Shown in pieces: positions 13,061 to 57,728 of a stretch of 64,000 nt of DNA. Numbering within the stretch: the stretch's first letter is position 1; every line of letters starts with the position of its first letter. The notes under the pieces are model-generated. The model searched no databases and was not told the origin of the DNA. It was given only the letters and a program-made list of their open reading frames with translations. Location: contig NC_088300.1 in NCBI RefSeq assembly GCF_032854445.1, positions 5,828,001-5,892,000 on the forward strand, written 5' to 3'. Source of the DNA: Liolophura sinensis. Its lineage: Eukaryota; Mollusca; Polyplacophora; Chitonida; Chitonidae. The translations under genes and the position numbers were made by a program.

Positions 13061-13289
13061 TTAAGGAACATCTTTCATGGCATCTCTGTCACCGAACCAG
13101 ACGAGCCTGTCCTCGCGAATATGGCCGGGCTGGGTTATAGCAGTGTCCAGTGATCGTATACTGATGATAAAGCGCCCCCCTGTCAGGTACAACCGTGGGC
13201 TTTCCCACACACTCGCCCGTCACTATGTACGGCGGTAATTCCAACATGTCCACATTTGTGGTGTACACGCCATAGCTGATATAGTAACT
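13061..13289 (-). other. last exon of A: frameshift hides a conserved C-terminus
   Basis: As written the frame stops at 13089 with an unconserved tail. One frame over, after the six-C run at 13175-13180 (G on the coding strand), the exon reads RFIISIRSL and GHIREDRLVWFGDR and ends at a TAA at 13063-13061. Paralogue B has GHIRADRYLWFGDR at the same place. A run of five instead of six would give 415 aa, against 416 in B. Either gene A is genuinely altered at its end or the assembly has one extra base. Confidence 0.85.
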
Positions 13290-16200
13290 CTGAAAACACA
13301 GTGCAGTATATCAACTTTACACTATATGCATAACACTTGCAAAGGATCCAAGAGAACATTTAAAAGAAACTACGTATGCGAGTCCCACAGAGGGCCATAA
13401 CTGCATACTGAGGTAAGTTGTGCAAATACGAACACGTAATTTGTCCTTCTTGAAGAACACTATCTTGAAAAGATTTTGAAAGTAATCTAAAATTTTATGA
13501 AAATGGATTCTTAGGATTTAACGAATTAATATGGCCTGATTATAGCAACCGATTTGAAACCTTTTCTTTACTCTGACTGTTACCCATTGACGAACATTCT
13601 GACGAGTTGTTCATATATACATATTTGACCAAAAACAAAATACAGCGTGGATACAGGCCCTGTCAACAGACTTCCCGTATCCGTTAATAATGATCAGGAC
13701 TCACAAAGCAATATAGGATATTAAGTTGGTTGTAACTGACATGGAGACACATGTTAGAGATACATGTATGTGCGTTAGCCTACATACAACGTAGCCTACG
13801 GTCGCTTTCCATTCAGTGTTCAAACCAGCCCTACATCTAAATGAACACATTGGCTGATTAACGTATTATTTTATATCATGCAATCATAAATGACAATAGC
13901 GGCCAACATTTTCCAGAGATAATGAAAGGACGTGTATGGTTTCCCATCGGGAGCGTACTCCATATAAAGTTTTGAATGTCTTAACTCGTTAGCTAGATTG
14001 AATAAAAGTTACTTCATATAGTCTCGCTTGATTTCTAACTTTCTATATACACGCTAATTCTCATATTTGTGTCTACAGACTCTCTTGTTAACAGGAACAG
14101 AGCCTCGAAAAAGAACAATAAAGTATCGAACAATACTTACTTTCATTGCTTTAAAGGAATCAAATAAAGCCTGTTTTACAGGCAACAGCGCGCTGGGTGT
14201 AAACTGGAAATTTTCTGGAGTATCTCTACTCAACTGTAGCAGCCCCCATCTGGATAACACAAATTGTATCATTGTTTAAAAATGTTGCATGAAACAGCTT
14301 GCAATGAACCCATTTCGAAATTATTTCCACTGAATCTATGCGTATGCTAGCCGTCAACCAATCAGGACGTTCCTGGTCAATAATCGTAGGGCCAATTCCC
14401 AAAGCGACGTTTAAAGGATTAGTGTCCAGATTGGTTATATATTCACAATTAGCTACACGTGTATATATATTGTTAAATGGAGTGTGGAAAAATACTGGAA
14501 AAACTACAGTAATCTGAGTAATATGGCATTAAAATCATTAGATAATGAGGCTGGGTTTATGCATTTTTTCCGCCAATACACGGTAGTCTCCTGGCAAGAG
14601 ATGGGATAAGGAATCTTGACGGGCAGTTAAATTTTAACAGCAGGGAGGAAAATTAGACTTTAAATATATGTATGTAAACTCTGGTGATAGGGCTTGGTGG
14701 GTATAAAACAAAGCGGGGGCTCATTCATCATGAGTTTGATCAATCTTCTGTATGTAGGTAAAGTGAAAGAAAAGTAGATACAGGCACATTATGGCTTCCA
14801 ATGAATGGCGCTTTGATACACGCTATCCCATTGGCTGTGTCTCTCCTGTGGACCAGTGGGTGGACTTCTGACAAATTGTAAACTGTGTACAACAAGACAA
14901 TGGCCGTTTGACAGCTACGACACTGGTAGCGGTATTGCCACCCCAGAAGCAATCCAAGAATAATCATGTTGCTTAACTGCGTTAATCAAGAAGTAATGAC
15001 TGGGTTTGAAGTACTGGTTGTTGATTAAAGTTAGTCATCAAAAGTGGGAAAACAAGAGATATCTTCTTGAGTAAGGCTCAGAGTAGGTGCGAAAGCAATC
15101 TTAAAGTGATAATCCAGCCCTCATTGTTTTAATCTCTGATCCATATTACGAGGCTTAGAGACACCGCAGGTAACAAAAGACGATTAAAGCAACCTTTCAC
15201 AACCCCTTGAGTAATTCTGACCATAATATAACTAGGAAAATTAAACAGGTGTAAGAATTTTTTTCCAATATTGCCTTGATTAAAGGAGTGAATATTAATT
15301 CCTGCGGACCCATTTTCGAACAAAATCCACTCGGGGAATGGAATGATATTTATTATGAAGCGGACAGAAGGAAAGAACAGTAAATATTAAATCTGATATA
15401 CACACGAAATGTAGACCTACAGTCTAACACAGGATAAAGCTATAGCTTACCACTCCATATTGCTAGTGCAGTTGGAAATGCCTGGACAAAGATCAAATTC
15501 ACGTTTGAAAACTTGGAATCTGAAGTCTGACCAGAGATGTCAGTGTCATAAATTGGAACTTGAGCATCGTCCACTATGGGTTCAAATTGATATGGCAGTA
15601 TATTTGCTTCTGTGTAGCTAGAATCCATCTTGAAAATGACATTGTTTTGATGCGAATTCCAAGGTTATATAGGCCAGCTAGACTTGGGTTGGTTACCTGA
15701 CGGCCGGCTGGAGATTGGCTAGGGTAGTAAACCTACTATTTTTGGTGGACTTTAAGTCATAATTACGTTTCAGAGGCCCTCCTGGTAATATACTGTTAAA
15801 CAGATTATAATCTTTATACATAGGACAAGTAGCTGAACCTGGGCACTAATCCTTTAACACAAACCACCAATGAATTAAAAAAATATATAAAGTACGAAAT
15901 TAGGACGGGATCATACAAAGGGAAGCAGTCAACAGTTTTCACTGATGTTGGAAAGGCGTGAGGTATGTTCTAGGCGAATGAGTGAAATCAGTATTCCAAT
16001 CGCGTACCGTAATATTATATAAGTTGTCGATAATAAAATATTGATTGCAACGGATTCAAATATTCAAATAGTTTTTGTTGTATTATAACTTGTGGCGTTA
16101 ATTGAGACGTGAGGCGGACACATCAACCGCATTTAATTTTATTCAAATTTTTAGCACCCAAACTAATCATAAACTCAAAAACAAGTGTGGGAATTAAAAC

Positions 16201-19200
16201 TAATTTCTAAAGACGCCATTTCATTACTTCACTTAGTATTGTCGCGCTAAGTAAAGTCAAAACACATATACAGGTTAGGTACTAATTTAATCGTAATAAA
16301 CATCAGAATCGTAAATTCAGTAAAGGCTAATGATTTCGTCATACTCAATTCAAGTTAGGTAATGGAATTCTGTTCATATTTACATACACGGAAGTATATT
16401 TCACTGACGCCATGTTAATCAGTGGATTCAGACTAAGACACAAGCCCTGGACGAGGCCCAACATGATTATCTCGGTGTTCTGCTACGTTTACTTCAACCC
16501 TCAAGCAGAAAACACAATACTATCAAAGACCGCTAACACACTCAAGGTGCACGTTCAATTCTGACGTTTGACAGGTAGTTTCTGGATTTCCCGCTGTTCG
16601 TGCATGGGACCTTAGTAACGAAAAGCAGTCAACGGCGCTCATGGTGTTATTTGCACAGTGGCCTCATGGATAGAGCGTCCGCCTCGAAGCCGGGAGACCT
16701 GCGGATCTAACCTGGGTCGGGTCATACCAAAGACTTTAAAAATGGTACTTGGAGCTGCCTCGCTTGACGCTCACCAGAGAGAGGTGAGAGCAAGGAAACT
16801 TGACTGGTTAGCCCGGTGTCCAGTATAATGTGACTGGGTGGAGTATTATGTCTAATGTCTTTGACACGATACTTCAGTGGCGACAACAAAATTAGCGGTG
16901 TGGATTCGCCCTGCTACAAGAGAACTCACTAATGAATCCTCGTTAACTGACTGAAAAAATATTGAGTACATGTGCGACGCTAAACCCCAAGCATGTATAA
17001 ATGCATTTACGTAGTCTTTCTTTCGTTGAAAACCACTTTGTATTCCACCAAAATGGCGTACAAAAACGTGTGTCACAGCTGATCAGTAGTTTACCCTTGA
17101 CGCCCCGGTTTCTTCTATTCGTAAGGGAAATGACTTGAATGTACCATTAAGTTGCAAATCAAATGATTATTGTTCTTGGTGATATACTAGTATATGAAGC
17201 CGTCTTTACCAAAACTACTAATGACATTCACAGAGTACTGCGCGTGTATACCAACAGGCAATCAGATAAGCATTCACAAGGTTTTATTATGACAACCCAC
17301 CTATCTGGTAAATGTAAACTCACAGCTCCATGTGGTTGCCATGACCACCAATTCGCTTCCTTTGATTCGTCCTGAAGAGAGATATGTAATTATAGGACAC
17401 CATTGTGCAAGGTAAGGATGTCGGATTCAAGTTTTAATGCATTGCCATAATGATACATGCTTACACGTATATGTATACAATATAATTTTATGATGAGTTA
17501 AAACTATGAAAGGAAAGCTACTAGCATGTCTTCATTGAAAATCATTCTACAGAGAGAATTTTTGTTCGTTAAACTCGAAGAAGACATAAGCTAGATTGTA
17601 GACTAGTCAGTATAGTATTTGAACCAGGAGCTTTGCATAATCATTGGCTGACTTACCTTAACATATTGTCCGTCTACAATTTTATGGGCCCAATGCGATC
17701 TGAAATGGAACGAAGTTGTTAATAGGTCCAAAAATGCCAAACCAAAGATACACCACAATTGTTACAATACTGAACACTCATCAAGTCAAATTTTCAGGTG
17801 TATTGCGAATAATTTATTCCTTTATTTGGCTCACCAAGCACAACGTTTTCAGAGTGACGAAGAGCACGTGGCAAATTCAACTGCTTACTACTATGTATTA
17901 AGACTTATTCTGACCCTTACTTTCGTCACTCATAGGAATGTAAAATAAAGCAAGGTTTTATGAATGTATAAAGTTGTTCACTTTATTGTTAAAATTTGTT
18001 CATGCACCAGGCTGCTGGTGAATTTAGGGAACCGTCCCAGCTGAGCTTTCAGAATGACACAGTGGAAGCCAAGAGGGAAACATTACTATCCGATCGCAGA
18101 GCTGTGACACATGAAACCCGTGGATAGCACAGGTCAAATGACACCACGTGCACATTTACAGGAAATGACGATGGATCTGCATCTTTCTCGAATAACGGTC
18201 AGCGCATACATGCAGCATGACGATGTCACAGTATACGACCGAGTACATTAACTACATGTACTTCATAATTCTAGCTGTGAAAAAAAGAATCATGACCCGT
18301 GATCAAATGAATGACTTAAATAACTGTCATCGAATTATGTCGTGGAATTTTTAAATGTGTCACGTGTACTTACCTGGCCAAAACCATTCTCCACGTCTCC
18401 TTGTCTCTGGGAATACTGTTCACGTCACGTGTCGTACCTGAACGTAGTCTGCTCAGAGGAAACTTCATCTCCACTGTCCAAAACTTGTCTACAAACCCAC
18501 ATAGTTTGGTTTGAATCTTAAGACTGGTTTTGAAAATTTACCAGGTCCGAAATGTCGAAGAAAGCACTGGAAGAGTTGTCAGCCTATTCCATTTTTTTGT
18601 TTATTTATGTGATTGGTGTTTTACGCCGTACTCAAGAATATTTCACTTATACGACGGCGGCCAGCATAATGGTGTGAAGAAACCGGACAGAGCCCGGGGG
18701 AAACCCACAACCATCCGCAGGTTGCTGGGAGACCTTCCCACTTACGGTCGGAGAGGAAGCTATCATGAGCTGGACTTGAACTCACAGCGACCGCAGCCTA
18801 TTCCAGGATACCATATTATCATCATATGATGACAGCTCAAGTTGACATCTTTATGCATTTTTAGACCCTATAAGATTTGCATCATTTAAATACTTTGGTT
18901 ATCGGAATGATCTCGAAATAATAATAATAAAAAATAATGCCAGAATGTCATAGATGCATTAAATTCATATTGGACACAACGAGAAGAAAATATTTACTTA
19001 AAAATGGAGAAAATGAAGGCCCCTCTTACTTGGGGAATCTGGATCGTTGATATTTCCGTCAACTAGAATAGCCTTTTCCACGTCACTCTCCCAGTTACTG
19101 AGAGCCCGGCCTCCGTCAATGTAAGCCTGGAAGAACACAGAGAATATGTCAGCAACACTGAGCTGTAACAGACACTATATTATTTGTGTTTATTGTAGTA

Positions 19201-22200
19201 AAAAATCACCGATTAAATATTTCAAATTTATGAAGCAGCCTAGTCAAAGAACGGAGTTCATAGGAATTCTGGGGAGGTTGTATCTGTTACAATTCAGTTC
19301 GATTGCATTTCCTTTCTTGTTTACAATAAATAAGCATCATTTTTCGAAAGCTGACAGCGTAATAGTGAAGTAAGTAAAACGATCAATTTGGTTGTTGTTA
19401 AAACAGTTAACATTTTCTCAGTGTGGTTTTAGGTAAGACCATCGTGATAGGCAAATCAATAAACATCGAAAACCAGACACAGATGTCTATTATTGCACAA
19501 ATCTATATTGGAATATGAACATTTTCTGTTTATATATATTTATTTATGTATTGACTATATTTATTTGATTGGTATTTAGTAGGACGTTGGCCAAGGCAGG
19601 CTTTGTGGGGAAAATTCATTATTAAATACAAACATGTAGGTCAATATGTCTTTGTATTACTCTACCTTTGTTAACATCAAATCCCAGATTGTCCCCAAAG
19701 CATTAATCTCGATTTCTTTGTAGCTGCAAATATAAAAATAAAAAAATATTTTTAAAGTAATTTTTACAACTGCGTACTGTGTATATAAAGCAATATGGAG
19801 AGAAGATCCACTGTTGTTAATCAGGTAATTTTATTACTCCAGTAAATTGCCTCTCGTTACAAAGGGCATTTGAACACAGTGAATGTCTACAGTTAACACC
19901 TGAGCTTTGGTGATGATATACAAGGGCGACATCACCTCCGACAGAACTCTGACCTACAGTTAATACCTGAGATTTGGCGGTGATATACAAGGGCGACACC
20001 ACCTTCGACAGAACTCTGGCCTACGGTTGACACCTGAGCTTTGGTGATGATATACAAGGGCGGCACCACCTTCGACAGAACTCTGACCTACGGTTAGCAC
20101 CAGAGCTTTGTTGATGATATACAAGGGTGATGATATACAAGGACAGAATTGTCGTTTACAGTTCATACCCGGGCTTTGGTGATGCTATATAAGGATGATA
20201 GATAATCCGTCAGAAATTTGCACCTATGAATCTAAAGATGACATTAATGACACTGGCCTCCGCTGTGCGAAATAGGGCCATCTAATTTACGTCTACTGTC
20301 CGCTGTCAGCGACGCAATAAACGACCTGATTCTCTGTTGACAAAACATGTCCTATCCCTCAAACATCCTCCAGAAAAAAGACCAGTTTATTTACTCACTT
20401 GTGCGTGCTTCCGTCAACATCCACAAAGATCTAAAATTGAAGTTGAAACTAAAGTTACATAGCAAGAATTGAACAGTAGTAAAATAAATAGGTGTTTCTA
20501 AGTATGTTTATGGCAACAATAATGACTGATATCACACCAAGCTGTGTGACTATGTATTAGGCCTATAAACAGTTAGGGGAAGAAAACGAAAACTGTTGAC
20601 AAAGAATTTTGTGAATCCTAAATCAGTTTACTTCGTACGCAAATATGGTCCATGATAAGTCATTTCTGGACGGTATCATTTATACGGAGCTGTTTAATAG
20701 TCGTGATGTCGAACCACGCATGTGCAAATAATTTCCATCTCTTTGTCGAAACCTGATTGATCACTGCGGTAAACTCATAATACTAAAGCGTGTCTCTCAA
20801 ATGCTGTCAACGATACTCAAAAGCATCACATCTGTGTTAAAACTTACCTCAAAGGCGTTATCGTTGAAAACTGTTGACAGAAAAAAATAAGACATCAGCC
20901 GTGATCTTCCAAAGCAGAGTATATGACGAAACATATTTTTACACCAACACTATTTATTTTGAGGAAAATAAGTAACGTGAGTGGGCCTCTAAATTTCGTG
21001 ATCCCTTTGCACTGCTTTAATGTTATTGTATGTAAAATGTTTTGGCCACGCAGACATTTGAGTAATTCTGGACAAGTGACGTCTAAGAAATTGCAATTAA
21101 GATCACTGTATTTTTCGTACCTTTTTTACCTAGAGTCATGGTGCTGAGGAGTGGGTGCCATCTGCTACTATTTCAACCCTGACTGAGGTAAATTGTCAAG
21201 AGGCCATATTTCACCGGTTACGTGTGACCACTTGCCAATTATCACACCACCGTCGCTGCTCTGATTTTGCTCATTATGCAGTAAGCCTGTTATTATATTT
21301 TCACAAAAATTTTAGGACGAGCTCTATTTTACAATGAGTCAAGTAAAGAATTGCTATGATTATAAAAATAATTCTATATTACAATAAGTAGGCAGGCAAA
21401 TTCAATAGTATAGGTCTAGTTATAAAATGGAAGACCTCGCTTAGAAGTAAAATGACTTTAATAACTGTAAATGAGATTTACACGTGTCGTTTGGATTGAT
21501 CTTCGAAATATTTTCATTGACTGGGTGAATCCAAATATGGATGTCTCCACAGAACTCACACCTACATCCGGCCAACATATCAAAAACTTGTGCAATGTTA
21601 ACCATGTAACATCGATACTTTGTCCACATATTCACCTGATGAACTGTTCTCTACCGGGACCGCGCTCTTATCTGAGATCAAGGAGGGCAGGGAAATCCAT
21701 GTGACATATCACAGTCAATCCGGCTGACATTATTGTGGTGACGTTAAGACAAACAGGGATGTGAAGCTGAGTCAAGCTCGACTAGACGGTCTCCAGACAA
21801 CAACAAACAGTTTTTACGCATACTTTGCATCTAATCTATATTTGTCTGAAGAAACGTGGGTGAACTAGCCAAGTGCGTAAAACATCAATCGCTTAGTTCA
21901 AATCCCAAAGATCCGTTTCATTGAATAGAACTCCGTTCCTATGGGTATTTCAGTATTTTATTATGACTCAACTGTGCTCTTGATCACAATACATGTAAAA
22001 AAGACCTAGAATGTTAAACAGTAGTATTTTTGGATTATAAAATTTCAACTATGTTTTTCTGATAAAACAAACATAGGCCTATCATCTGTTCAAGACAGGC
22101 AGGCGGCTCCTGGACAAGCGTATGGGTTACATACGTCTTCAAAAGATGTAGTTTTGAGCACTGCGTTATATGGACTTTACTTCTGCTCATTTGTAACGAC

Positions 22201-25200
22201 AGCCATGTTTATCATCTTACCATGAGAGTCATGTTTTGTTTTGTTAGCCCAGACGTGTTCGTCCTGTAAGTAGGCACCCACATACAGGTGCGTGTCGTCC
22301 CACCGAATCTTCACCCGTGTGTCATATAACGGTTTGGGGTAGTCCGTCCCACGCAAGTCTGCCACAACAAACATCACATGGAAACGCTACAAGGTACAGC
22401 TATAACAACAAGTGTGTCCTGGTACAAGTATAACAACAAGTGTGTCCTGGAACAAATATAACAACAAGTGTGTTCTGGAACAAATATAACAACAGGTGTG
22501 CTCTAGAACAAATATAATAACGGGTGCATTCTGGAACAAATATAACAACGGGTGTATTCTGCATCAAATATAACAACAGATGTGTTTTGGTGACTAATAT
22601 ATTTCCATGGGTTGTTTTGTATCCATTCCAGGTGAAATGAAATCGGCAGTATGAACAAATAAACGTTTTTGATGTCACTGGTGAGAAACACTCTTAATAT
22701 GGTTTAAACTGTCTATTGTAGAGGTAAACGTTTGATAATTCATTTGTATAATTTGTGGCAAAAATATAATGAAATAAATAATCCATATCTTGTGATATAT
22801 TTTCAGCACTCTGCCAAGCGATCCTGACTAGTGAATTTACCTCCATTTAAATAATGCTAAACGTGTGTAGACACAAAATCGACGTACAGTTGTTAAAACA
22901 TTCATTTGGTTATATACAACTGCATTATGAACGAGTTAATTTTACCAACAGGATGTGTTTGAGTATTAGCTGCAAACCTTCTTCGAAGTTACTTTGTGTA
23001 TGACTGCCTATATCATACTGGATTCAGATCACTGATGCTGTAAACAAATGTATTTCAGCCACAGAACTTATCAGCGTATAGTTTGCCCATTTATTAAGAT
23101 GTATGAGGCTCTTTGATGAATGATAAGATTTCCTAGATGAATTTAACATGAAGAAGCATTGACATGATCATTATGTTCACCAAATTGTAATTTATGAGGT
23201 ATCAGCTATATGAGGTATGTTTGTAATATGTAACTGTAACTTTTGATAATCTCTGGTGAACGAATTGGTTGGGTGTAATCTGTTTCTGTTCATTCATTAT
23301 AAAGTATTTTCACCCAAAGGATGGCTAAACCTGCCTGTGAAAGGAATGTCCAGGCAGGCAGGAAACCGCTACAGTTTATAAAGTGAGCAAAGAGAGATGA
23401 CTTCAGTTGGTCTCTCGATTTAATGCTGTAATCTTGTTGGGATCACCAAGTACTCATCTCAGAATGAAGTGTGATCTGTGCTGGAAAATCGTAAGTAAAA
23501 TTATTATAACTCATATTATAATGCGAAGCCGAAGGATTCCAGTTTGTGCACGTGGAGAACGTACTTCACAGTTTTTGTGTGACAGTCACCAAGTTGTCGC
23601 CAATGGTTTGGTGAGATTGATTTCGTTTAAGCCATTAATCTCTATAAGAAATTGTGAGCTAGGTTTTTCTGGTTCAGTCCAGTGAGGGCCTTTATTCACC
23701 TGTCAGTGACCGACTCACCCACGAACTTTTCCGTCCAAGGTACTTCCTCCCAGGCAGGGTCATTGAGGTCGCCGTCAACGGCTATCGTCTGCTCCTTCAA
23801 GTGGTAAGCCACGTAACTTCTGGGTAATGGAATGTCACATGTTTCTGCCCGACACGCCGTCACCTGACAACTTTCTAGGAATCTGAATGACAAGATCATT
23901 TCCATATGAAAGTCACATTTAAGTATAGCCTACTGATTACTTCATATAGTCACTGTGATAACGTTTATCTAATTTACATTAAGGTGTCATATCAGTTGTG
24001 TCTAGGAAAGTGATATTTAGGAATTTAAGCAATGTTCAGTATAACTAATCTATAATCCCGGTAATTGTCTTGGAATGATTCTGAAGGAGAATCATTTATC
24101 CAAGGTCTTTATTAAGACACCAAAGGATCAGAATGCATGCCCCAAACATCACGCTCAGAAATCAATAATCTTTTCGTTTTGACATCAAGGAAACAGCAGA
24201 AACCTTAACTTCCTAAAAGATAAGGTACTCCATTCCAACATCACTCAATGCATGTTAAGTCAGTGGCCCGATTAATGTTTTAAAAAGCGATGCGTGTCCA
24301 CATGTATTTGGACAAGAGCATCTAATGGATGTATAAGTTGATATTTATTTATTTGATTTGTGTTTTACGCCGGACTCAAGAATATTTGACTTATACGATG
24401 GCGGACAGCATTATGGTGGGTGGAAAGCAGCCATATAAGTTGATAGTTCTAATGTATGTATAAGTTGACAATTCTAATGGATGTATATGTTGACAGTTCT
24501 AATGGATGTATATGTTGACAGTTCTAATGGGTATAAAGGTTAACAGTTCTAATGCATGTCTAAGTTGACAGTTCTAATGGATGTAAAAGTTGAAGTCCTA
24601 ATGATGTATAAGTTGATAGTTCTAATGAATGTCTAATTTGACAGTTCTAATGAATGTATATGTTGACAGTTCAATGGATGTATGTGTTGACAGTTCTAAT
24701 GGGTATAAAGGTTAACAGTTCTAATGGATGTATAAGTTGATAGTTCTAATGAATGTCTAAGTTGACAGTTCTAATGGATGTCTAAGTTGACCGTCCTAAT
24801 GATGTATAAGTTGACAGTTCTAATGTATGTATAAGTTGACAATTCTAATGGATGTATATGTTGACAGTTCTAATGGGTATAAAGGTTAACAGTTTTAATG
24901 CCTGTCTAAGTTGACAGTTCTGATGGGTATAAAGGTTAACAGTTCTAATGTATGTATAAGTTGACAATTCTAATGGATGTATATGTTGACAGTTCTCATG
25001 GGTATAAGGGTTAACAGTTCTAATGCATGCCTAAGTTGACAGGTCTAATGGGTATAAAGGTTAACACTTCTAATGGATGTATAAGTTGACAGTTCTAATG
25101 AATGTCTAAGTTGACAGTTCTAAAGGATGTCTAAGTTGACAGTTCTAAAGAATGTATAGGTTGACAGTTGTAGTGGATGTATAAGTTGACAGTTCTAACG

Positions 25201-28058
25201 GATAAAAAGTTGACAGTATTAATGGATATATGAGTTAACAGTTCTAATGGATGTATAAGCTGACAGTTCTGATGGTTGTATAAGTTGACAGTTCTAAAGA
25301 ATGTATAGGTTGACAGTGTAGTGGTTGCATAAGTTAACAGTTCTAATGCCTGTCTAACTTGACAGTTCTAATGGGTATAAAGGTTAACAGTTCTAATGCA
25401 TGTCTCAGTTGACAGTTCTAATTGATGTAAAGTTGACAGTCCTAATGATGTATAAGTTGACAGTTCTAATGAATGTCTAATTTGACAATTCTAATGAATG
25501 TATATGTTGACAGTTCAATGGATGTATATGTTGACAGTTCTAATGGGTATAAAGGTTAACAGTTCTAATGGATGTATAAGTTGACAGTTCTAATGAATGT
25601 CTAAGTTGACAGTTCTAATGGATGTCTAAGTTGACAGTACTAATGGATGTATAAGTTGACAGTTCTAATGGATGTATAGGTTGACAGTTCTAATGGTTGC
25701 CTAAGTTGCCAGTTCTAGTGGAATGTATAAGTTGACAGTTCTAATGGATAAAATGTTGACAGAAATTCGGGTTCCTTTAGAAACATGGCATATAGTGTAA
25801 ATTTTGTTATAGAAATAGCAGAATGCATCCGAGTTCATCGAGTGCCCTTTCAGCTTCACTACACTTTCATCTCACTTTTTCTCATATCACATGGATGGTT
25901 GTGATTCAAACGTTCATGGCCTACATCAGGGTATTATCAGGCGGTTTTCATGTACCCAACAACAGACTCGGGTAGAAACAGATCACGGTTTTGCCAGTGT
26001 AAATCTGCAAATGAGCAGTCTTTGAGTAAGGATTTTATCGCAAGCCAGGAACACTGTGGTTTTGTCACGAATCTCTGTCCCGTGTGTTGTACTGAGCCCG
26101 AGCCCGTGTGAGCCTGAATGTTACACTGGAGCTTGTTCATAGCGTCAATGTCTAAGTCTCAATACACCCCGTTGTCGGACCAGTTTCCAGAGGATCAACA
26201 GGCGACGTGACATGAGCTTCAGCTAGTTAATTTGAAACTTTCGTAATTTGGTGTAAGCGTTTAAGCTGGCACGACAAGAGCTAGTTTTCTAATCGCCTTA
26301 ATTTTTAAATGCATATACTGGTCAAGACTTTAAAGCATGGGTTAAAAAGGCAGGCATGTATAGTCCATTTAGTACAGAGCAGATCACACTATCATGAGTT
26401 GTTTGTAAGCTATAGCTTTTAATGTCAGTACATGGTTTTTGGCATCGATAAATGGATAAAACATCGAGTTTTGTTGTTTGTTTACACATTAAATCTGATT
26501 TAATGGTTACGCTTAAATTTATAGCTTAAGCAATTACTTTTATAATTACTTTTACAAAAATAACTTCGTTTGTTTCTCGTACGTTTATAATAAAATTATC
26601 AAATTTAATTATTTAATTTATCAAATAAATTATTGACTTTCGCTTATAAGGACATACATTCAAGTATATATTGCTTTCTATGGTAAGAAATTATTGGAGG
26701 GCCTCCGCGGCTGAGTTGGTTAGCGCGTTAGCGCAGCATAATGACCCAGAGGCCTCTCACCAATGCGGTCGCTGTGAGTTCAAGTCCCGCTCATGCTGGC
26801 CTCCTCTCCGGCCGTAAGGGGGAAGGTTTACCAGCAACCTGCGGATGGTCGTGGGTTTTCCCCGGGCTCTGCCTGGTTTCCTCTTACCATAATGCTGGCC
26901 ACCGTCGCACAAGTGAAATATTCTTGAGTACGGCGTAAAACATCAATCAAATAAATAAATAAATTATTGATTTTCGCTAGTTGTTACATCTAAGCATACT
27001 GTATGCTGTAAAGAATCAAGGAAAGGAAACATTAATTAAAATAGTTAGAAACAATGAACTGTGAAACTTGAAATTAGCAGCCAAACTTATCAAATCAAAC
27101 TTATTTTCCAATCTAAAAAATCTATGTACACATATGTTCTCTCCGAGAGAGAAAATTTTAAGAAAATTTTATTTCAGTACTCAACCTAACTATTACATGC
27201 GGCTGTATCATGGAAGCGGAGAGAAAGTTTCAGGAAGAGATAAAGAATGCTTTAGCCTGACATGGGTGTGTAAGCGAATGTTTGCCGATCACACCTGTCA
27301 ACATGTATATTTTCTTCCCTGCTACAGAAGAAGTGCCTTCTACATGTCATTTACGTTAACTACACCTCTGAATTGTGACAGTATCCATTCATATCTGTGT
27401 GCTTTAAATTAATGACACATCCATACCGGTAATACTTTAAATACTTTAAAATTTTAAATCTTCTTTTAAATTAGCGTATATTAAAATTATAAGAGTATTT
27501 AGATCAGCATACAGAAAAAATAAAGATATTTGGTTTTAGATCCCGGTGGATATACTTTAGATACGGTATAAAAAAAAACATATGGCACAATGCAACCTTT
27601 GCGAACACCTGCACAGTTCTAGAATGATGCATTGGTAGTTATTACATTCCCCAAAACATATTTGGGGAAATATATTACCCAAGATATTTTTTAATCACGT
27701 TTACTTTATGAATTATCCAAGCTTTCAGTTTTGAGCATTAAAAACTGGATCCTGTATTCAAGCTCGACTTTTGATGGGTTACATGACTGTTGCTAAAACC
27801 CATGCTCGTAAGCCAGAGGTACAGTTTACAACAGATCGTTCACACAATTTAGGGAAAACTTAATAAGTGAAGAAATGCTTATTCTCACCTATCTATTTGA
27901 GGAATATTGCTGCCAGATCCTGTGCCACAAGCGCGTCTGTCTCGCCTTGGTAGATCCTGACCACCTTCTCGCACGAAATAACCAATAATTACCCCGATGC
28001 CTAAAGATATGCAGGTCACAACCAAACATATCACGATCACTATCCTTCCAGTGGCCAT
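13089..28058 (-). CDS. CBM9-like type II membrane protein, paralogue A, 12 exons
   Basis: Exons in transcript order are 28058-27889, 23882-23719, 22358-22221, 20870-20848, 20430-20399, 19723-19666, 19126-19030, 18488-18374, 17699-17657, 17371-17301, 14249-14141 and 13289-13089. All have GT/AG borders and agreeing phases, giving 406 aa as the frame stands. Residues about 5-28 form a membrane anchor (start MATGRIVIVICLVV, then GVIIGYFVRE). After a short cysteine-bearing linker the domain begins at RSYVAYHLKEQTIAVDGDLN. Further blocks are DTRVKIRWDDTHLYVGAYLQ, NDNAFEIFVDVDGSTH, EINALGTIWDL, TVEMKFPLSRL and WWSWQPHGAVSLHLPDRWG. That order is the layout of bacterial CBM9-like proteins as I remember them. 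Without an N-terminal signal peptidase site, the domain should face the lumen or outside. The ligand is unknown. The last exon carries a frameshift (separate entry). Confidence 0.88.
14415..15853 (-). mobile_element. TTAA-flanked DNA transposon relative, copy 2 (uninterrupted)
   Basis: The ends AGGATTAGTG...CACTAATCCT are perfect inverted repeats of at least 10 bp, flanked by TTAA at 14411-14414 and 15854-15857. It is 1439 bp and homologous to 5936-7827. It lies in intron 10 of gene A, on the gene's strand. No transposase domain is recognisable. Besides the exon-like frame at its right end, a second conserved stretch at about 14740-14967 (around [16 protein letters not shown]) has a counterpart at 6336-6578. 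Confidence 0.82.
15440..15628 (-). pseudogene. exon-like frame in transposon copy 2
   Basis: Counterpart of 7130-7318 (62 codons, [20 protein letters not shown]...), again with a GTAAGC donor near its end. Conservation of frame and donor in two diverged copies suggests it was an exon of the element's gene or a captured host exon. The product is unknown. Confidence 0.4.
16661..16872 (+). mobile_element. second tRNA-derived SINE family
   Basis: The head GTGGCCTCATGGATAGAGCG and CTGCGGATCTAACCTGGGTC is tRNA-like. The body contains TTAGCCCGGTGTCCAGTATA and GTGACTGGGTGGAGTATTAT. It differs from the common SINE and is seen once here, in intron 10 of gene A. I recall similar bodies from other lophotrochozoan genomes. 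It is not a functional tRNA: the sequence after the B box does not close an acceptor stem. Confidence 0.75.
18597..18797 (-). mobile_element. SINE, head-truncated
   Basis: Tail, body and B-box side (GCTGGACTTGAACTCACAGC) are present. The tRNA-like A-box end is missing. It lies just upstream (transcript sense) of gene A exon 8, within intron 7. Confidence 0.88.
19870..20195. repeat. 67-bp tandem repeat, about 4-5 copies
   Basis: Units contain GAGCTTTGGTGATGATATAC, AAGGGCGACACCACCTTCGA and CAGAACTCTGACCTACAGTT. They lie in intron 5 of gene A. Later units are degenerate. Confidence 0.85.
22394..22590. repeat. 28-bp minisatellite, about 7 copies
   Basis: The unit is close to CAAGTGTGTCCTGGAACAAA plus TATAACAA. 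It starts about 35 bp upstream (transcript sense) of gene A exon 3, in intron 2. The corresponding intron of gene B also carries a minisatellite with a different unit. Confidence 0.88.
24343..24425 (-). mobile_element. SINE tail fragment beside a minisatellite
   Basis: TTTATTTATTTGATTTGTG, TTTTACGCCGGACTCAAGAA and GCATTATGGTGGGTGG match the 3' end of the common SINE. The minisatellite of intron 1 begins directly after it. Confidence 0.85.
24430..25765. repeat. 25-bp minisatellite, about 50 copies
   Basis: The consensus is near AGTTGACAGTTCTAATGGAT plus GTATA, with 23-26 bp variants. It occupies 1.3 kb of intron 1 of gene A. Groups of variants recur in the same order (a short GGGTATAAAGGTTAACAG unit following longer ones), which points to expansion of multi-unit blocks. 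Confidence 0.93.
26701..26967 (+). mobile_element. SINE, full length, in intron 1 of A
   Basis: The head GCCTCCGCGGCTGAGTTGGT leads through the complete body to the tail GAGTACGGCGTAAAACATCA and ATAA repeats. AAATTATTG just before the head and just after the tail is a probable target duplication. Confidence 0.92.
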
Positions 28059-30408: not shown

Positions 30409-30426
30409 TTTATTTAATTCTTTATT
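30409..30426 (-). terminator. candidate poly(A) signals of gene B
   Basis: Two AATAAA hexamers on the - strand (30414-30409 and 30426-30421) lie about 350 bp after the stop of gene B, a plausible 3' UTR length. There is no transcript evidence. Confidence 0.45.
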
Positions 30427-30771
30427 TCTGCCCTTGAATTGTCGAGTTAGGAAGTGGAAATACGTCTTACGATTAACACCTTTCAAAGACCTTTTTAGTT
30501 TGACACTTTTAAGTTGTTGGTCATCAGCAAATACACATGATGTCCATATACAGCTCCGAGACATGCGTTTTGTTCGTGGACGTGTATAAAAGGTCATGAG
30601 GTAAATAGGATTTAAACAAAGGCTGTGGGCTTGAGAAAGATTATGTTTCGAACATGTAAAGCCCAAGATGTTACCCTTTTAAACATTAACCTTTGAAATA
30701 ATGAGTAATTCGTCTCTATACGACGAAGCTGAAGTGGCCAGTGGACAGATAAGTAAAAGGCAAACGTTTTT

Positions 30772-42700: not shown

Positions 42701-45700
42701 CATTCCGAGTACATATTAGCTCAAGTTCCCATTCAGAGTACCAATTAGCTCAGGTTCCCATTCAGAGTACCAATTAGATCAGGTTCCCATTAGCTCATGT
42801 TCCCATTCAGAGTACCAATTAGCTCAGGTTCCCATTAGCTCAGGTTCCCATTCAGAGTACCAATTAGCTCAGGTTCCCATTCAGAGTACCACCAAGCTCA
42901 GGTTCCCATTCAGAGTACCACCAAGCTCAGGTTCCCATTCAGAGTACCAACTCGCTCATGTTCCCATTTAGAGTACCAACAAGCACAGGTTCCCATTCAG
43001 AGTACCAACAAGCTCAGGTTCCCATTCAGAGTACCAACAAGCTCAGGTTCCCATTTAGAGTACCAATTAGCTCAGGTTCCCATTCCGAGTACCTATTAGC
43101 TCAAGTTCCCATTTAGAGTACCAATTAGCTCAGGTTCCCATTCCGAGTACCAATTAGCTCAGGTTCCCATTAGCTCAGGTTCCCATTCAGAGTACCTATT
43201 AGCTCAGGTTCCCATAAGCTCAGGTTCCCATTCAGAGTACCAATTAGCTCAGGTTCCCATTCAGAGTACCAACAAGCTCAGGTTCCCATTCAGAGTACCA
43301 ACAAGTTCAGGTTTCCATTCAGAGTACCAAGAAGCTCATGATTCCATTCAGAGTACCAATTAGCTCAGGTTCCCATTCAGAGTACCAACAAGCTCAGGTT
43401 CCCATTCAGAGTACCAACATGCTCAGGTTCCCATTCAGAGTACCAACAAGCTCGGGTTCCCATTCAGAGTACCAACAAGCTCAGGTTCCCATTCAGAGTA
43501 CCAACTTGCTCATGTTCCCATTCAGAGTACCACCAAACTCAGGTTCCCATTCAGAGTACGAACAAGCTTCGATTCCCATTCAGAGTACCAATTAGCTCAG
43601 GTTCCCATTCAGAGTACCACCAAGCTCAGGTTCCCATTCAGAGTACCAACAAGCTCAGGTTCCCATTCAGAGTACCAACTAGCTCAGGTTCCCATTAGCT
43701 CAGGTTCCCATTCAGAGTACCAATTAGCTCATGTTCCCATTCAGAGTACCAACAAGCTCATGTTCCCATTCAGAGTACCAATTTGCTCAGGTTCCCATTC
43801 AGAGTACCAACAAGCTCAGGTTCCCATTCAGAGTACCAACTCGCTCATGTTCCCATTTAGAGTACCACCAAGCTCAGGTTCCCATTCAGAGTACGAACAA
43901 GCTCCGATTCCCATTCAGAGCACCAACTATCCCAGAAAACAACCAAAAGATTTAATTTTTTTTACACATGCATTCTCTTTGGTTTATCCAATCATAGGAG
44001 TAAGTGACGCCGTTTTTATTATTGTTAGTTATGTAATCTTGAATATCACTTTAACCATAAATTACAAAGAACAAAAAAAAATTGATAAATAAAAATAATC
44101 AACATTTTATTAAATGCCATACCAACAAAGTCCTCGGTTTGTGAGACCTCGGACCAGGCTTCCTCATCAATCCGTCCATCTAAATTGATAGTCTTCCCCT
44201 GAAGGTGATAAGCGACGTAGGTGCGGGGTAGTGGTATCTCACATGAATCAGCTTGACACGCCCCCTCTCGGCACCCAGCGATACACGTGTCCAGGTGACT
44301 GTAATGAAGCAGATAAATGATTGTAGGAAATAAAATTTTATCCAAACTTCTTCCTTTCAGAGAAATATGTGACTAGAAGGCCTGCATGCTATATTAGAGC
44401 AAACTGCAAGGAAGGAGAAGAAAACATAAAAATGATGCCAAAATCAGATGAAAGAGCGCCAAAACTTATTTACAAATATGATCTTTAATATATTTTTTGT
44501 ATTTTTTTTTCAAGAGAAAAGGGTATTTGAAATTTTTTTTTGTATGGTGGGTATATGGGACCAACTTTTGGTATTTATAGTTGTGGATAATAATGTTATA
44601 AACAAGGATATGATGCTTGTCTAATAAATTTATTTGAATGTAAATTTGTTGTTTATATAGAAACATATGCATTCAACCTAAATTATGATAATATTTATGA
44701 ACATATTAAAAATATAAATATCATCCAAATTGAGGTTAAATACATTTGTTAGCTGAAAAGAACAAATTCTAGTGCAAAAATATTTATTAAAATACGTGTT
44801 ACATCCTCATTTATGACATTATTAAACATTATTAAAGACTATCAATACCAAAAGTTGGTCCAAAATACCCACCATACAAAAATTATTTTCAAGTTTCTTT
44901 TTCTCCTTAAGGAAAAATCGGAAGACCATATTTAGGAATAACTTTTCGCACTCATTCATCTGAACTTTGTTATTCTTATGTTTTCTCCACCTTTAAAACT
45001 TTAAAGTGTTCATAATACACTACATATAAGACAAACACGTACAGTACAATAAGTATACTACTCCTCAGTATACTGTACACACTGCGATGTCGCCGCATAA
45101 TTAAAAATAAGTGAAACCGACGAAGGCTTACATACTGTGGGATTGATAGCACTTAGAGCAAACCATAGATCCGTGAGGTGTATAAATAGCCTGACCTCAT
45201 GCCTATATTAAACATTCACTTAGAAGCGGCAGATCTATAAATAAAACAATTTCTCACATTTTCTCAACTTTCTAGTGTCTGCATTTTGGTAATTATATAA
45301 GTAGGCCTATATAATTGATACTTGTATACATACATTTACAAACCTGTGGTATATCCTCATTTTATTATGACAGCCAGGATTGATTGAATTCACAAAGTAT
45401 GACGTCTTGAAGAATTAATGAAACAAATATATCTTCAGTATTTAATAAAAATTCCAAACATACTCGACCACTTAGGCTACTAGGTTTATTGTCTTCTCCA
45501 GGTCATGTATTATGAAAAAAAAAACATGCCCCAGGGAAAAAATGCACGCTATTAGGATGGCTACAGGTAAAAACGCTTTAGAATATTTTGCACACACCAT
45601 TGTATACGTTTATACTCTATCACGTGATAAGACACAAACTCTTGGTAGAGAACTTTAGAATAAACTATAGCAACGCCACGGTCAATCCTTCTTATCTCGT

Positions 45701-47315: not shown

Positions 47316-47374
<59 letters not shown>

Positions 47375-53300: not shown

Positions 53301-55045
53301 AAGCTATGTAGGCCGTATTCATCAAAACTTTATAGCCTACACTGCTGAAAGTGATACAGGTAACTAAAAAAATAAAAAGAAAATAATAAAAAAACTTGAA
53401 AACTATGGCATCCATTCCACTTGGATAAGCTGTTTCTGACCAGTCAAATACGAGAATGTGCTATAGGTGATTGGGACGTGGCTTGAAGGAATCTCACTGA
53501 GTGGGAAAACTTAATGACCATGTATAACAAGATAGGGTCACAATCTCGAAGGGTGTAGAGTCGATTATAATTCAGGATGGGTAGCGAATGTAACTGTGTG
53601 ACTGAGAGCTACACAGCACTGTGTATGGTATGGTAAACCGTAACTATATACAGTGATAGTTTACTGTAATGCCAAGCAGAAAGTTTTGCTGACTATTTTT
53701 GATGTCTTTCAGTTCAGTTCACCTCTGCGAACATAGACGCTTAAGACCTCTGTGAACTGTGTAGCACCTCTTCAGCAGGGTAACATGTTCAGGGAATTCT
53801 TATGTATACCCAGAGGGTAGAGAAGATTAAGTCTGACAACATGACCTGCACGACTGAGACGGTCCTACGGCAAACAAAGTAGTACCCGCTGTTTTGCAAC
53901 GTTGATGACGTGGCCGGTATACTTCAGAAAACAGCACGAGGAACCTAACAGGTAGCTTCAAACTATTCAGTATTGCTTGAGCTCGATGACTGTCTGAATG
54001 TCAAGATAATAGTAGATACCTGAAGAACTGCATGGAAAACGTATGTGGTGTCATAAGGATGAAACTTTTCTGCTCAAATATAGGACTGCAGACACAGTGT
54101 GATGAAGAACTTTGTAAAACATGTATTGGGCTAATTATACACATTTACTAGGACGAGTCCTGAAAGCCACGAAGCAAAAAATATTAAGGGTATTAGGATG
54201 GATCATCAACTGGAGAAGAAGATATGGCCCTGGGATCACGAAGCGATCTTAAACTTAAGCCAAAATTTCAATCATTAAACTTAGTATGTTCCTTTATGTT
54301 TAGCTGAAATTTTTTTACAATAACTTACCCAGAGTTTACGTTGTCAAGGAAATATTTTGATCTTGTTACGTTAGAAATAACAATTTTAAAGTGATTTGAA
54401 ATTTTGGCTTAAGTGTAAGATCGTCTTTTGATCCCATGGCCTGGGCCTGGTTACGCAAGGCGCTCTTAACGTTACGTTCACTTAACTACCACGGCAACCA
54501 GTACTGTGGGCATTACGTCGTCAGGGTAGTTGCGATCTCCTAACGTCAAGAGAGCTTCGTGAAACTGAACCCAGCTGGTCTCCAATGATTTATGACAGAA
54601 TATTGCGGATGAAAAGCCTGGTTTGTCTCACTGTAAGGTACATATACAGCAGACAGACCGGAATGTCCAAGGTTATCTAAGCTTATCACATTGTGCTTCC
54701 GGAGTTTTGTATAGCCTTGGTTATACATCTTGAAAAGAGTTGGAACAGTTTCCATCTTATGACGAACTGGCTGTGATGAACTTACCAGCTCAACTCTACA
54801 CATGACATCACAGACAATTACACCCAGAATGTGAGATTCGGGACTTCAGTTTAAAATGCCCCTTACGGTGTCACTTACCCTTTAACTGCAGCGCTGGTGA
54901 AGGTACCTCCCTGGTCACAAGACCTCTTCACTCGGTTCGGGGGAGCCACTGGCGATCTATTCGCCACGAAGTATCCAATGATAACTCCAGAACCAAGGCA
55001 AAGCATGGCCAAAACGCTCGCTATGGCAATCACCAGCTTCTGCAT
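30772..55045 (-). CDS. CBM9-like type II membrane protein, paralogue B, 12 exons
   Basis: Exons in transcript order are 55045-54879, 44298-44123, 42133-41996, 37224-37202, 36881-36850, 36092-36035, 35497-35401, 34842-34728, 34370-34328, 33563-33493, 32402-32294 and 30993-30772. They join into 416 aa. Exons 3-11 match those of paralogue A in length and phase. The N-terminus MQKLVIAIASVLAML...GVIIGYFVAN is a membrane anchor. A cysteine-rich linker (LDTCIAGCREGACQADSCEI) leads into the CBM9-like domain: RTYVAYHLQGKTINLDGRID, DSRVKIRWDNTNLYVAAFLQ, WQDNAFELYVDTDGSTH, VNALKTTWDLLLTKAYIDGG, SVEIALPFTQLRW and WWSWQPHGAVSLHLPDRWG. It ends GHIRADRYLWFGDR plus a short tail. Linker and domain should be lumenal or extracellular. 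The ligand is unknown, and a catalytic role is not indicated. Introns 1-3 are greatly enlarged by repeats. Confidence 0.88.
32700..32897 (-). mobile_element. SINE, head-truncated and diverged
   Basis: The tail (TTTATTTAATTGGTGTGATA), body (ATGCTCATGTTGCTGACAGA) and GAGCTGGACT are present with several changes. It lies in intron 10 of gene B. Confidence 0.85.
33013..33212 (+). mobile_element. SINE, head-truncated, with long ATAA tail
   Basis: It begins at GTGGTCGCTGTGAGTTCAAG, lacks the A-box end and has a shortened centre. It ends in about eight AAAT units. It lies tail-out next to the - strand copy at 32700-32897, so the two are in opposite orientation about 115 bp apart. Confidence 0.88.
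33828..34093 (-). mobile_element. full-length SINE with a 13-bp target duplication
   Basis: A complete, little-diverged copy lies between perfect 13-bp direct repeats TCTATTCTGTAAA (33815-33827 and 34094-34106). This marks a recent insertion by target-primed reverse transcription. It lies in intron 9 of gene B, antisense in sequence terms to the SINE's own promoter (SINE on the - strand like the gene). Confidence 0.96.
37291..41020. repeat. 39-bp minisatellite, about 95 copies, 3.7 kb
   Basis: The unit is near GTTATGGATGTTTTAGACAA plus GGTGGTGAGATGTGACTGG. There are four main variants at the second half: GTTGAGATG, GGTGAGATG, GGGGCCACG and GGTGCCATG. Because 39 is a multiple of three and the unit lacks stops in one frame on each strand, frames of several hundred codons run through it in both directions; these are not taken as genes. 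About 19 units hold CACGTG. The array fills most of intron 3 of gene B, just upstream (transcript sense) of the 23-bp exon 4. Confidence 0.97.
42205..43930. repeat. 29-bp minisatellite, about 59 copies
   Basis: The unit is near CATTCAGAGTACCAACAAGC plus TCAGGTTCC. Variants replace CAACAAGC with CAATTAGC, and some units are shortened (CCCATTAGCTCAGGTT). It starts about 70 bp upstream (transcript sense) of exon 3 of gene B, in intron 2, and runs to within 200 bp of exon 2. Confidence 0.96.
44408..44995. mobile_element. palindromic element (hairpin), about 590 bp
   Basis: The left half from AAGGAGAAGAAAACATAAAA through GTATGGTGGGTATATGGGAC and CAACTTTTGGTATTTATAG is mirrored by the right half (CAAAAGTTGGTCCAAAATAC and CCACCATACAAAAATTATTT, ending near ATAAGAATAACAAAG in complement). 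The similarity continues almost to the centre at about 44700. It has no coding capacity. It lies in intron 1 of gene B and fits a foldback or MITE-type element. Confidence 0.8.
45899..46080 (-). other. acidic low-complexity open frame, not placed in gene B
   Basis: It reads an Asp/Asn/Thr-rich stretch (TNGDTDNDDSDNDDTGNC) after an AG acceptor-like site. Its reading frame does not fit the phase 2 intron between exons 1 and 2 of gene B: joining it would give an early stop. It may be chance or a non-coding repeat of GATAAC-like units. Confidence 0.3.
47319..47371. repeat. TA dinucleotide microsatellite
   Basis: About 26 uninterrupted TA units. Confidence 0.97.
48001..48030. repeat. CATA tetranucleotide microsatellite
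   Basis: Six CATA units in a row (ACATACATACATACATACAT). Confidence 0.9.
48706..49165 (+). mobile_element. SINE split by about 210 bp of other sequence
   Basis: A degenerate head (GGGGTGCCTCCGTGAACTAT) and body run to GATGCAGGCCGCTGCCGTTG at about 48916. The tail resumes at about 49129 (AAATATTCTTGGGCACGGCG). The sequence between is unrelated to the SINE and unidentified. Confidence 0.8.
49448..49704 (-). mobile_element. SINE, near full length
   Basis: Tail, body and head (CTAGCGCGCTAACCAACTGA plus GCCAT) are present, with a small deletion near the B box (CTTGAACAGCGACCGC). Confidence 0.9.
49705..49795 (-). mobile_element. second SINE fragment directly abutting the first
   Basis: Immediately after the head of the previous copy the sequence restarts at TACTCAAGAATATGTTACTT and continues to GACAGAGCCTGGTGGAAGCA, the 3' half of the same SINE. 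The first copy appears to have inserted into this older one. Confidence 0.75.
49949..52909. mobile_element. 3-kb foldback element with long imperfect inverted repeats
   Basis: The left arm begins AAAGCTACGTTAGTTACGTT and the right arm ends in the complement, near GGGACGTAACAGCAGCTTT. Further mirrored pairs in order are GCCAAGCATCAAGGCCCAAT (about 49989) with 52803-52825, CAACTGGATTTGAACCC (50189) with 52632-52648, CAGGTTGCTTGACATATGG (50315) with about 52517-52535, and TCATGTCTCAAGGTACATAT (50651) with about 52277-52296. ACGGAAGAAAAATTCG (51567) pairs with 52075-52095. The left arm holds about 700 bp (50810-51490) absent from the right. No transposase was recognised. It lies in intron 1 of gene B. 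Confidence 0.85.
52910..54224. other. intron 1 of gene B, nothing recognised
   Basis: No exon, known repeat or tRNA-like element was recognised, apart from a poly-T stretch at about 53270-53292. Confidence 0.45.
54225..54441. mobile_element. MITE with about 46-bp terminal inverted repeats
   Basis: The left end GGCCCTGGGATCACGAAGCG, then ATCTTAAACTTAAGCCAAAA and TTTCAA, is mirrored at 54396-54441 with few mismatches. It is 217 bp long and has no coding capacity. It lies in intron 1 of gene B, about 440 bp downstream of exon 1. Confidence 0.88.
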
Positions 55046-57604: not shown

Positions 57605-57728
57605 TTAAAGGTGATCGTCACAAGCACACCCACACATGTACACTGTGTTTGTTGTTCTTCCTCGCGTTGGGTCACTCTACCTTACAGCAAACATTGGGCT
57701 GTTAAAACAATAGATGACAATAGCTTAC

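Follow-up and report, generated by a model that had tools for sequence, protein, structure and literature searches.

In solved structures of family 9 carbohydrate-binding modules (CBM9) the sugar is clamped by two aromatic residues, Trp71 and Trp175 in T. maritima and Tyr89 and Trp191 in C. kristjansonii, and in the same report no natural carbohydrate tested was bound by CBM9.1 of the same enzyme, which is without the clamp aromatics (PMC8280721). Since CBM9.1 lacks both, the clamp pair is not strictly defining for CBM9. Here we describe a gene family of the chiton Liolophura sinensis that encodes a CBM9-like domain followed by a C-terminal domain with a predicted type IV pilin fold. Two of its copies, A and B, lie in tandem in a stretch of 64,000 nucleotides (assembly GCF_032854445.1, contig NC_088300.1, positions 5,828,001 to 5,892,000 of the forward strand), hereafter the window, from which an earlier note had predicted a pair of membrane proteins with a CBM9-like domain.

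The gene models, the match to the Pfam family CBM9_1, the homology to bacterial proteins and the two folds modelled on a bacterial relative lead us to favour, with moderate confidence, the reading that the chiton copies most likely encode a membrane-tethered, lectin-like protein with an ectodomain of CBM9 and pilin-fold domain.

Gene copies and the CBM9 domain

Copies A and B are real genes. Both were rebuilt with 12 exons on the minus strand, A from 28058 to 13089 and B from 55045 to 30772 (Table 1), and all 22 introns have GT...AG borders. As the earlier note had stated, exons 3 to 11 are of equal length in the two copies (138, 23, 32, 58, 97, 115, 43, 71 and 109 bp), and the exon phases agree. 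The reading frame of B is intact, with 1251 bases and 416 residues, and the two proteins are 53% identical over the alignment. For the 228 codons shared in exons 3 to 11, identity was 71% at first, 77% at second and 40% at third codon positions, and the proportions of nonsynonymous (pN) and synonymous (pS) differences were 0.25 and 0.84, pS being saturated. The codon-position pattern together with the matching phases is not due to chance and shows selection on the protein.

A third paralogue, C, had been missed in the earlier note. It has 12 exons and lies on the plus strand of the same chromosome-scale contig, 31 Mb off (C6:36727673-36737242), with an exon 8 three bases shorter than that of A and B. 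Whole-genome searches with B and with C as queries (609,464,459 bases in 632 contigs) found no copy beyond these three; apart from matches to first exons upstream of B, a single further row, on another contig, had an expectation value (E) of 8. That the copies are bacterial contamination or dead genes, and not animal genes, is highly improbable. In its favour, copy A loses its frame close to the end and the relatives reached are bacterial, in searches whose only animal genome was this one; set against this are the eleven introns in each of the three copies, the 82 Mb contig, the dispersed repeats in the introns and a fully supported chiton clade on a long stem, and for B and C this explanation is refuted by introns and intact frames.

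In a Pfam scan of A and B, both passed the curated cut-off of CBM9_1 (PF06452; 23.4 bits), A with 38.0 bits (2.1e-9) and B with 32.9 bits (7.6e-8), while their match to CBM9_2 lies below the cut-off of that family. The CBM9 assignment made earlier thereby holds in sequence, as does the claim that no enzyme is attached, no such domain being seen in the same scan. No match was found in an NCBIfam scan of B, nor in a six-frame search of the chiton genome with the CBM9_1 model, the latter probably because the exons are short.

The fold was modelled on a bacterial relative, L010, from a Verrucomicrobiales metagenome-assembled genome, which shares 36% identity with B over its best segment. The model, made with an alignment of 40 bacterial sequences from the 80 loci described below, reached a predicted local distance difference test score (pLDDT) of 91.8. 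The best structural match of L010 is 4JPQ, a putative carbohydrate-binding protein of B. uniformis (residues 42-279 of L010, Z 22.3, root-mean-square deviation 2.6, 207 residues aligned), and the CBM9 part also matches the CBM9 of C. kristjansonii (7NWN, Z 20.3) and T. maritima (1I82, Z 19.9). As the top Z scores are to solved CBM9 structures, the beta-sandwich of L010 is CBM9, and the family, as modelled on this relative, has the fold that had been expected. The chain of 4JPQ, 219 residues long, stops with the CBM9 fold and is thus without the pilin-like domain; we know of no published ligand for it. The likeness to the xylanase modules 1I82 and 7NWN extends from the fold to the first clamp aromatic and to the Glu that follows it in A and B (Q in C). 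In contrast, the bacterial relative is only 18-19% identical to them in the structure alignment, the second clamp Trp seems to be absent, and the chiton CBM9 is not joined to an enzyme and is followed by another domain.

The C-terminal domain

The earlier note had let the CBM9 run to the C-terminal end of the protein. This was not borne out, as the match of L010 to CBM9 structures stops near residue 279 and a separate domain then follows; the part beyond about residue 285, corresponding to about residues 320-416 or the last ~90 residues of B, lies outside the CBM9 sandwich. Modelled alone with 37 sequences from the 80 loci (pLDDT 91.7), the C-terminal domain of L010 consists of one long helix and four strands. 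When 1000 Foldseek candidates were re-ranked by structure, the first 23 of 50 rows were taken up without exception by type IV and minor pilins (Z 10.5 to 5.1, nine of the 23 at 8 or more) and the first non-pilin row had a Z score of 3.6. The pilins included PilE (4NOA, Z 10.5), PilA (8TJ2, Z 9.1) and ComP (Z 6.9). A profile of the domain found PilA of M. xanthus as the best of the PDB sequences (E 0.0015).

The chiton C-termini matched the bacterial C-terminal profile with 49.0 bits for C, 31.0 for B and 18.9 for the truncated A, the best of 3000 shuffles reaching 5.4, and the domain is therefore the same in chiton and bacteria. On the bacterial model, the last ~90 residues are read as a distinct domain that adopts the type IV pilin fold, which is new here, and its common descent with pilins is likely. 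With type IV and minor pilins it shares the fold and an LYxxQxxYxxxxGxY-type motif. It differs from them in having neither the N-terminal hydrophobic polymerisation helix nor a prepilin cleavage site, and it stands mid-chain behind the CBM9, so that it is not a pilin; as no prepilin leader or hydrophobic first helix was found in it, it is not a filament subunit of the usual kind either. The literature on pilin-like domains in eukaryotes, or on CBM9 with pilin, gave no pointer to this combination in the titles and opening lines of the abstracts listed.

Bacterial relatives and origin

A pattern scan of prokaryote genomes yielded 257 stretches, 193 of which encode relatives, and the best 80 of these 193 were kept. 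Patterns from the two chiton copies alone were poor and gave no match; adding two bacterial proteins worked. The titles of the best 80 name Planctomycetota, Verrucomicrobiota, Bacteroidota, Balneolaceae, Bacillota/Paenibacillus, Armatimonadota, Acidobacteria and others, and in 52 of them the match starts at residue 77-80 of B, just past the Cys linker. A tblastn search in plasmids gave 12 records, the best three of which, from Bacteroidota, align with B at 30-34% identity, starting at residue 80 and reaching 360-405. Conversely, a profile of the three chiton proteins, with A cut before its frame change here and in the trees, matched 79 of the 80 bacterial loci, 77 of them at 225-296 bits; the two low matches (51 and 21 bits) are a cut frame and a fused protein, and L022, whose frame was misread, is outside the 79. 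Viral relatives were not found in one scan of viral contigs.

Judged by these sequence comparisons, the chiton ectodomain is homologous over its full length to bacterial proteins named 'carbohydrate-binding family 9-like', and the likeness to stand-alone bacterial forms proposed earlier is corroborated from three sides, by the plasmid search, the genome scan and the chiton profile. By the reading frames assigned in this analysis, 68 of the 80 relatives have fewer than 480 residues, and are therefore stand-alone. Two of this type that were aligned, WP_011966800.1 of Parabacteroides and WP_309940891.1 of Aureibacter, are homologous to the ectodomain from the CBM9 through the C-terminal domain and have no catalytic domain. 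They lack the C-x4-C-x4-C stalk and the NKT sequon of the chiton proteins, and one of them has a Cys in the C-terminal domain, in a different column. The bacterial stand-alone forms further differ from the chiton copies in having a bacterial signal, a lipobox-like motif or neither (by a crude rule), and no introns.

The bacterial family is often found beside enzymes handling glycans or peptides. With neighbour profiles, GHL10-like proteins were found at 13 and transglutaminase-like proteins at 19 of the 80 loci, near or fused and within the fetched stretch always on the same strand; three GHL10-like and four transglutaminase-like loci, seven of the 32, had themselves been used to build these profiles. 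Ten downstream and ten upstream neighbours were picked from 20 loci for Pfam. The downstream ones included four with a transglutaminase core and three with GHL10, and the upstream ones comprised one GH92, one alpha-L-fucosidase, one further CBM9-like protein and seven that were unrelated or unassigned. Among ten of the relatives themselves, Pfam identified a transglutaminase core in four, an M61 peptidase in one, an amidohydrolase in one and a SnoaL-like domain in three, and no fusion to cellulases or xylanases. The 'remodelled hydrolase accessory' that the earlier note had offered as one possibility is not favoured, given the 68 stand-alone relatives, yet 32 of the 80 loci have an enzyme-like neighbour or fusion.

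Some loci have features of their own. Among L008, L011, L014, L018 and L048, the CBM9-like part is fused, in Planctomycetota and Verrucomicrobiota, to a large transglutaminase-core protein, in some with a DLH-like domain, and in Paenibacillus loci a relative of this large protein is encoded downstream. In Parabacteroides bouchesdurhonensis a second CBM9_1 protein is encoded directly upstream of the CBM9-like gene (L040:3761-4867). The chiton genome has a GHL10 stretch of its own, L099 (C6:81061748-81063142), with 465 open codons and a GHL10 glycosyl-hydrolase-like domain (E 8.1e-63), the gene being placed at C6:81062204-81063109; a splice-acceptor-like AG precedes the open frame and it looks like the exon of an animal gene. 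As a partner of the CBM9 genes it was rejected, being 44-75 Mb away and giving no match with the profile of the bacterial GHL10-like neighbours.

Phylogenetic trees were sampled from bacteria and this one animal genome. In the careful tree, of 42 bacterial rows chosen for spread and the three chiton proteins, the chiton copies form one clade (100/100), within which A pairs with B (100/99). The stem of this clade measures 0.92 changes per column, and no bacterial sister to it is supported. The quick tree of 82 rows (77 bacterial locus rows, two plasmid proteins and three chiton proteins) agrees, but a long bacterial branch, L058, included in this tree only, meets the chiton clade. L046, whose frame stops early, and L017, a fused protein with a partial match, were left out of both. 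The phylogeny with bacterial homologues that had been proposed for these proteins has thus given one fully supported chiton clade and no supported bacterial sister, and the naming of a bacterial donor group was given up in view of the latter and of the long chiton stem.

Somewhat short of an even chance, we give tentative credit to the proposal that an animal lineage took over a bacterial surface protein of CBM9 plus pilin fold, adding the anchor, the disulphide stalk and the introns, and made of it a family of tethered glycan receptors. InterPro and PANTHER have entries for animal CBM9-like proteins. A literature search for polyhydroxyalkanoate depolymerase, a name used for such entries, gave no match, and among the papers listed none was found on an animal CBM9 protein, a weak test as the term also caught CBM94 or was read as CBM91. 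A paper on GT54 was discarded as a CBM9 case since it concerns CBM94.

Predicted membrane topology and location

The N-terminal stretch that the earlier note took for a single membrane anchor and the Cys-bearing linker were found again, and in all three copies, as one uncharged N-terminal run of 24-25 residues and a linker of the form C-x4-C-x4-C. By hydropathy, no 19-residue window above 1.6 on the Kyte-Doolittle scale was found after residue 60 in B, in C, or in A up to its frame change. Also common to the three are one Cys in the pilin-like domain and the sequon NKT, directly after a conserved Trp-Ala (WA-NKT). From run length and hydropathy we infer a type II membrane topology; the anchor, the linker Cys and the sequon fit a location in the secretory pathway or at the cell surface, where disulphides and glycosylation would be expected.

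Tethering is contested by the possibility, which we rate as rather unlikely, that a signal peptide, and not an anchor, forms the hydrophobic N-terminus and that the protein, once this is cleaved, is secreted, for instance into mucus, gut lumen or shell matrix. A hydrophobic N-terminus or lipobox-like motif is present in 49 of 74 bacterial relatives (by the same crude rule), so that export is a habit of the family. The cores of usual signal peptides are, however, shorter than the uncharged runs of 24-25 residues seen here, and all four first-exon types retain the GxGxxIGYF end.

Golgi enzymes, too, are laid out as type II proteins with a short tail, a single anchor and a stalk; in the chiton proteins the catalytic domain is missing. 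The proteins could accordingly be residents of the Golgi or the endoplasmic reticulum that aid the substrate choice of a glycosyltransferase, sulfotransferase or hydrolase. Topology, stalk and shared sequon agree with such a role, as do the bacterial loci with a glycosyl-hydrolase-like or transglutaminase-like protein near or fused, but no catalytic partner gene was seen in the annotated part of the window. Nor were chiton homologues of the transglutaminase-like and GHL10-like bacterial neighbours found with two queries, a null result that shows little because there was no positive control. We consider residence in these compartments unlikely, and return to the tethered lectin-like protein.

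Possible sugar binding

In the proposed mechanism a small animal gene family, with three copies in this chiton, would encode type II membrane glycoproteins with a very short cytoplasmic end, one signal-anchor helix and a disulphide-forming stalk. The ectodomain would be a CBM9 beta-sandwich with a C-terminal domain of type IV pilin fold. The CBM9 face would bind an extracellular glycan or one met in the secretory pathway. The pilin-like domain, packed alongside, would give rigidity or bind a partner, and the stalk, with the partner Cys in the pilin-like domain, would keep the protein folded or dimerised.

The following points count against the lectin-like protein of two domains. At the second clamp position a Met is found in L010 and Leu, Leu and Ile in B, A and C, adjoining an invariant His; this position, placed by comparing profiles against CBM9 domains of two Paenibacillus xylanases and by counting back from a conserved Gly, is less sure than the first. 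Both structure models are of a bacterial relative and not of the chiton protein. The likeness to pilins is strong in structure and weak in sequence. In Foldseek's own ranking two ComP minor pilins came first with weak values (E 0.07 and 0.18). Pfam on the 37 bacterial members gave Pilin_GH in nine (best E 0.01) and ComP_DUS in one (0.0028), and in the chiton C-terminal pieces of B and C no Pfam family was found. In the search of PDB sequences the second match was a designed repeat protein (E 0.0033, no stretch passing alone) and the third was PilE (0.52). When six bacterial genomes were searched for Pilin_GH, the matches were two places in a single genome that did not reach the cut-off of the family, and one of these, by its N-terminus an ordinary planctomycete pilin, reached 10.4 bits with the C-terminal profile, the best of 2000 shuffles being 6.4.

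The first clamp position is aromatic in all three copies, being Trp162 in B, Phe in A and Tyr in C. It would seem that one of the two clamp aromatics is kept and the other replaced. Because of this apparent replacement, binding of cello- or xylo-oligosaccharides of the classic kind is not to be assumed, and sugar binding of that kind is not assured from the sequence. The ectodomain might even have lost sugar binding and now act as an adhesion, scaffold or peptide- or metal-binding module, to which we assign a low probability. The residues at the second clamp position suggest it, and the fold is common to cofactor-carrying subunits, L010 matching those of ethylbenzene dehydrogenase (Z 14.7) and nitrite oxidoreductase (Z 13.0) and the cytochrome of cellobiose dehydrogenase (Z 8.2). 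The fusions in the ten bacterial proteins, as listed above, are likewise not to cellulases or xylanases. On the other hand, the first aromatic is retained throughout, and glycan enzymes (GH92, alpha-L-fucosidase, GHL10) neighbour some of the bacterial loci.

If an animal lineage did take over the bacterial two-domain protein, a type IV pilin fold would be working within an animal protein. The pilin-like domain gives a bacterial family spread over many phyla a second recognisable part, which makes glycan binding, assembly or both testable for such proteins. Binding of microbial or algal glycans by the animal copies would mean that a grazing mollusc employs a bacterial tool at the surface of its own cells.

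Coordinates and further features of the window

The EDRLVWFGD-type end that had been assigned to both copies of the window is in frame in B (ADRYLWFGD) and in C (TDRYLWFGN) only. Within exon 12 of copy A, at 13089-13204, the frame departs from that of B and C: the letters for EDRLVWFGD follow six consecutive G and stand in a different frame, and the frame of A continued from exon 11 reads unrelated letters and ends with ...SRGQARLVR-stop at 13089, the start coordinate of the earlier finding. Over 40 columns the out-of-frame stretch still agrees with B at 47.5%. Since these letters are still B-like, the frame change would be either a recent event or an assembly error at the homopolymer.

Two additional first exons upstream of B, absent from the earlier note, lie inside an 824-base duplicated segment (57596-58413 and L001:619-1413) whose copies are 90.7% identical and about 7 kb apart. 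Each combines a start codon with a GxGIxIGYF anchor and has a donor whose phase fits exon 2 of B (Table 1). In the genome search no exons like those of B were found between them and B, and they may be alternative promoters of B.

Table 1. Exons of copies A and B and additional first exons (positions of the window unless preceded by C6)
Feature	Position	Strand	Remarks
Copy A exon 1	27889..28058	minus	start codon, short cytoplasmic end, predicted membrane anchor (residues ~6-29, by hydropathy), first linker
Copy A exon 2	23719..23882	minus	C-x4-C-x4-C linker and CBM9 start
Copy A exon 3, 138 bp	22221..22358	minus	CBM9; NKT sequon common to all three copies
Copy A exon 4, 23 bp	20848..20870	minus	
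Copy A exon 5, 32 bp	20399..20430	minus	
Copy A exon 6, 58 bp	19666..19723	minus	
Copy A exon 7, 97 bp	19030..19126	minus	
Copy A exon 8, 115 bp	18374..18488	minus	
Copy A exon 9, 43 bp	17657..17699	minus	
Copy A exon 10, 71 bp	17301..17371	minus	WWSWQPHGAVSLHLPDR block, close to CBM9 end
Copy A exon 11, 109 bp	14141..14249	minus	last CBM9 strand and predicted helix of pilin-like domain (aligned to bacterial relative)
Copy A exon 12, read in frame	13089..13289	minus	ends ...GQARLVR-stop; frame departs from B and C behind the G run
Copy B exon 1	54879..55045	minus	start codon, predicted membrane anchor (residues ~4-28), first linker
Copy B exon 2, 176 bp	44123..44298	minus	Cys linker and CBM9 start
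Copy B exon 3, 138 bp	41996..42133	minus	NKT sequon
Copy B exon 4, 23 bp	37202..37224	minus	Trp162, at the position of clamp residue Trp71 of T. maritima CBM9-2
Copy B exon 5, 32 bp	36850..36881	minus	
Copy B exon 6, 58 bp	36035..36092	minus	
Copy B exon 7, 97 bp	35401..35497	minus	
Copy B exon 8, 115 bp	34728..34842	minus	
Copy B exon 9, 43 bp	34328..34370	minus	
Copy B exon 10, 71 bp	33493..33563	minus	WWSWQPHGAVSLHLPDR block
Copy B exon 11, 109 bp	32294..32402	minus	CBM9 end and predicted helix of pilin-like domain
Copy B exon 12, 222 bp	30772..30993	minus	predicted beta-sheet of pilin-like domain, ADRYLWFGD end, stop
Possible alternative first exon of B (MDKSTILVTLIVAAICVGLGILIGYF...)	57729..57874	minus	GT donor, phase fits B exon 2; coordinates hand-counted
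Second extra first exon	C6:5892897, just beyond the window		start codon, GxGIxIGYF anchor, donor in phase of B exon 2

A GAT-rich open stretch at about 46082 in intron 1 of copy B was rejected as an extra exon, its phase being unfit for exon 1. Minisatellites occupy parts of several introns. In intron 3 of copy B a unit of 39 bp is repeated in 96 copies (37287-41024) and is open for up to 518 and 533 codons on the two strands, because the unit is a multiple of three. Intron 2 of copy B has 29 bp units at 42214-43927 (51 copies in the first row and more beyond), and intron 1 of copy A has 53 copies of 25 bp at 24434-25749. A dispersed repeat with GTTTTACGCCGTACTCAAGAATATTTCACTTATACGACGGCGGCCAGCAT, in slightly changed forms, lies in several introns (33830-34090, 26700-26960, 18600-18780 and others) and is presumably like a short interspersed nuclear element. 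On the minus strand an open frame at 60062-60505 has a translation which we take to resemble the end of a reverse transcriptase of the non-long terminal repeat type.

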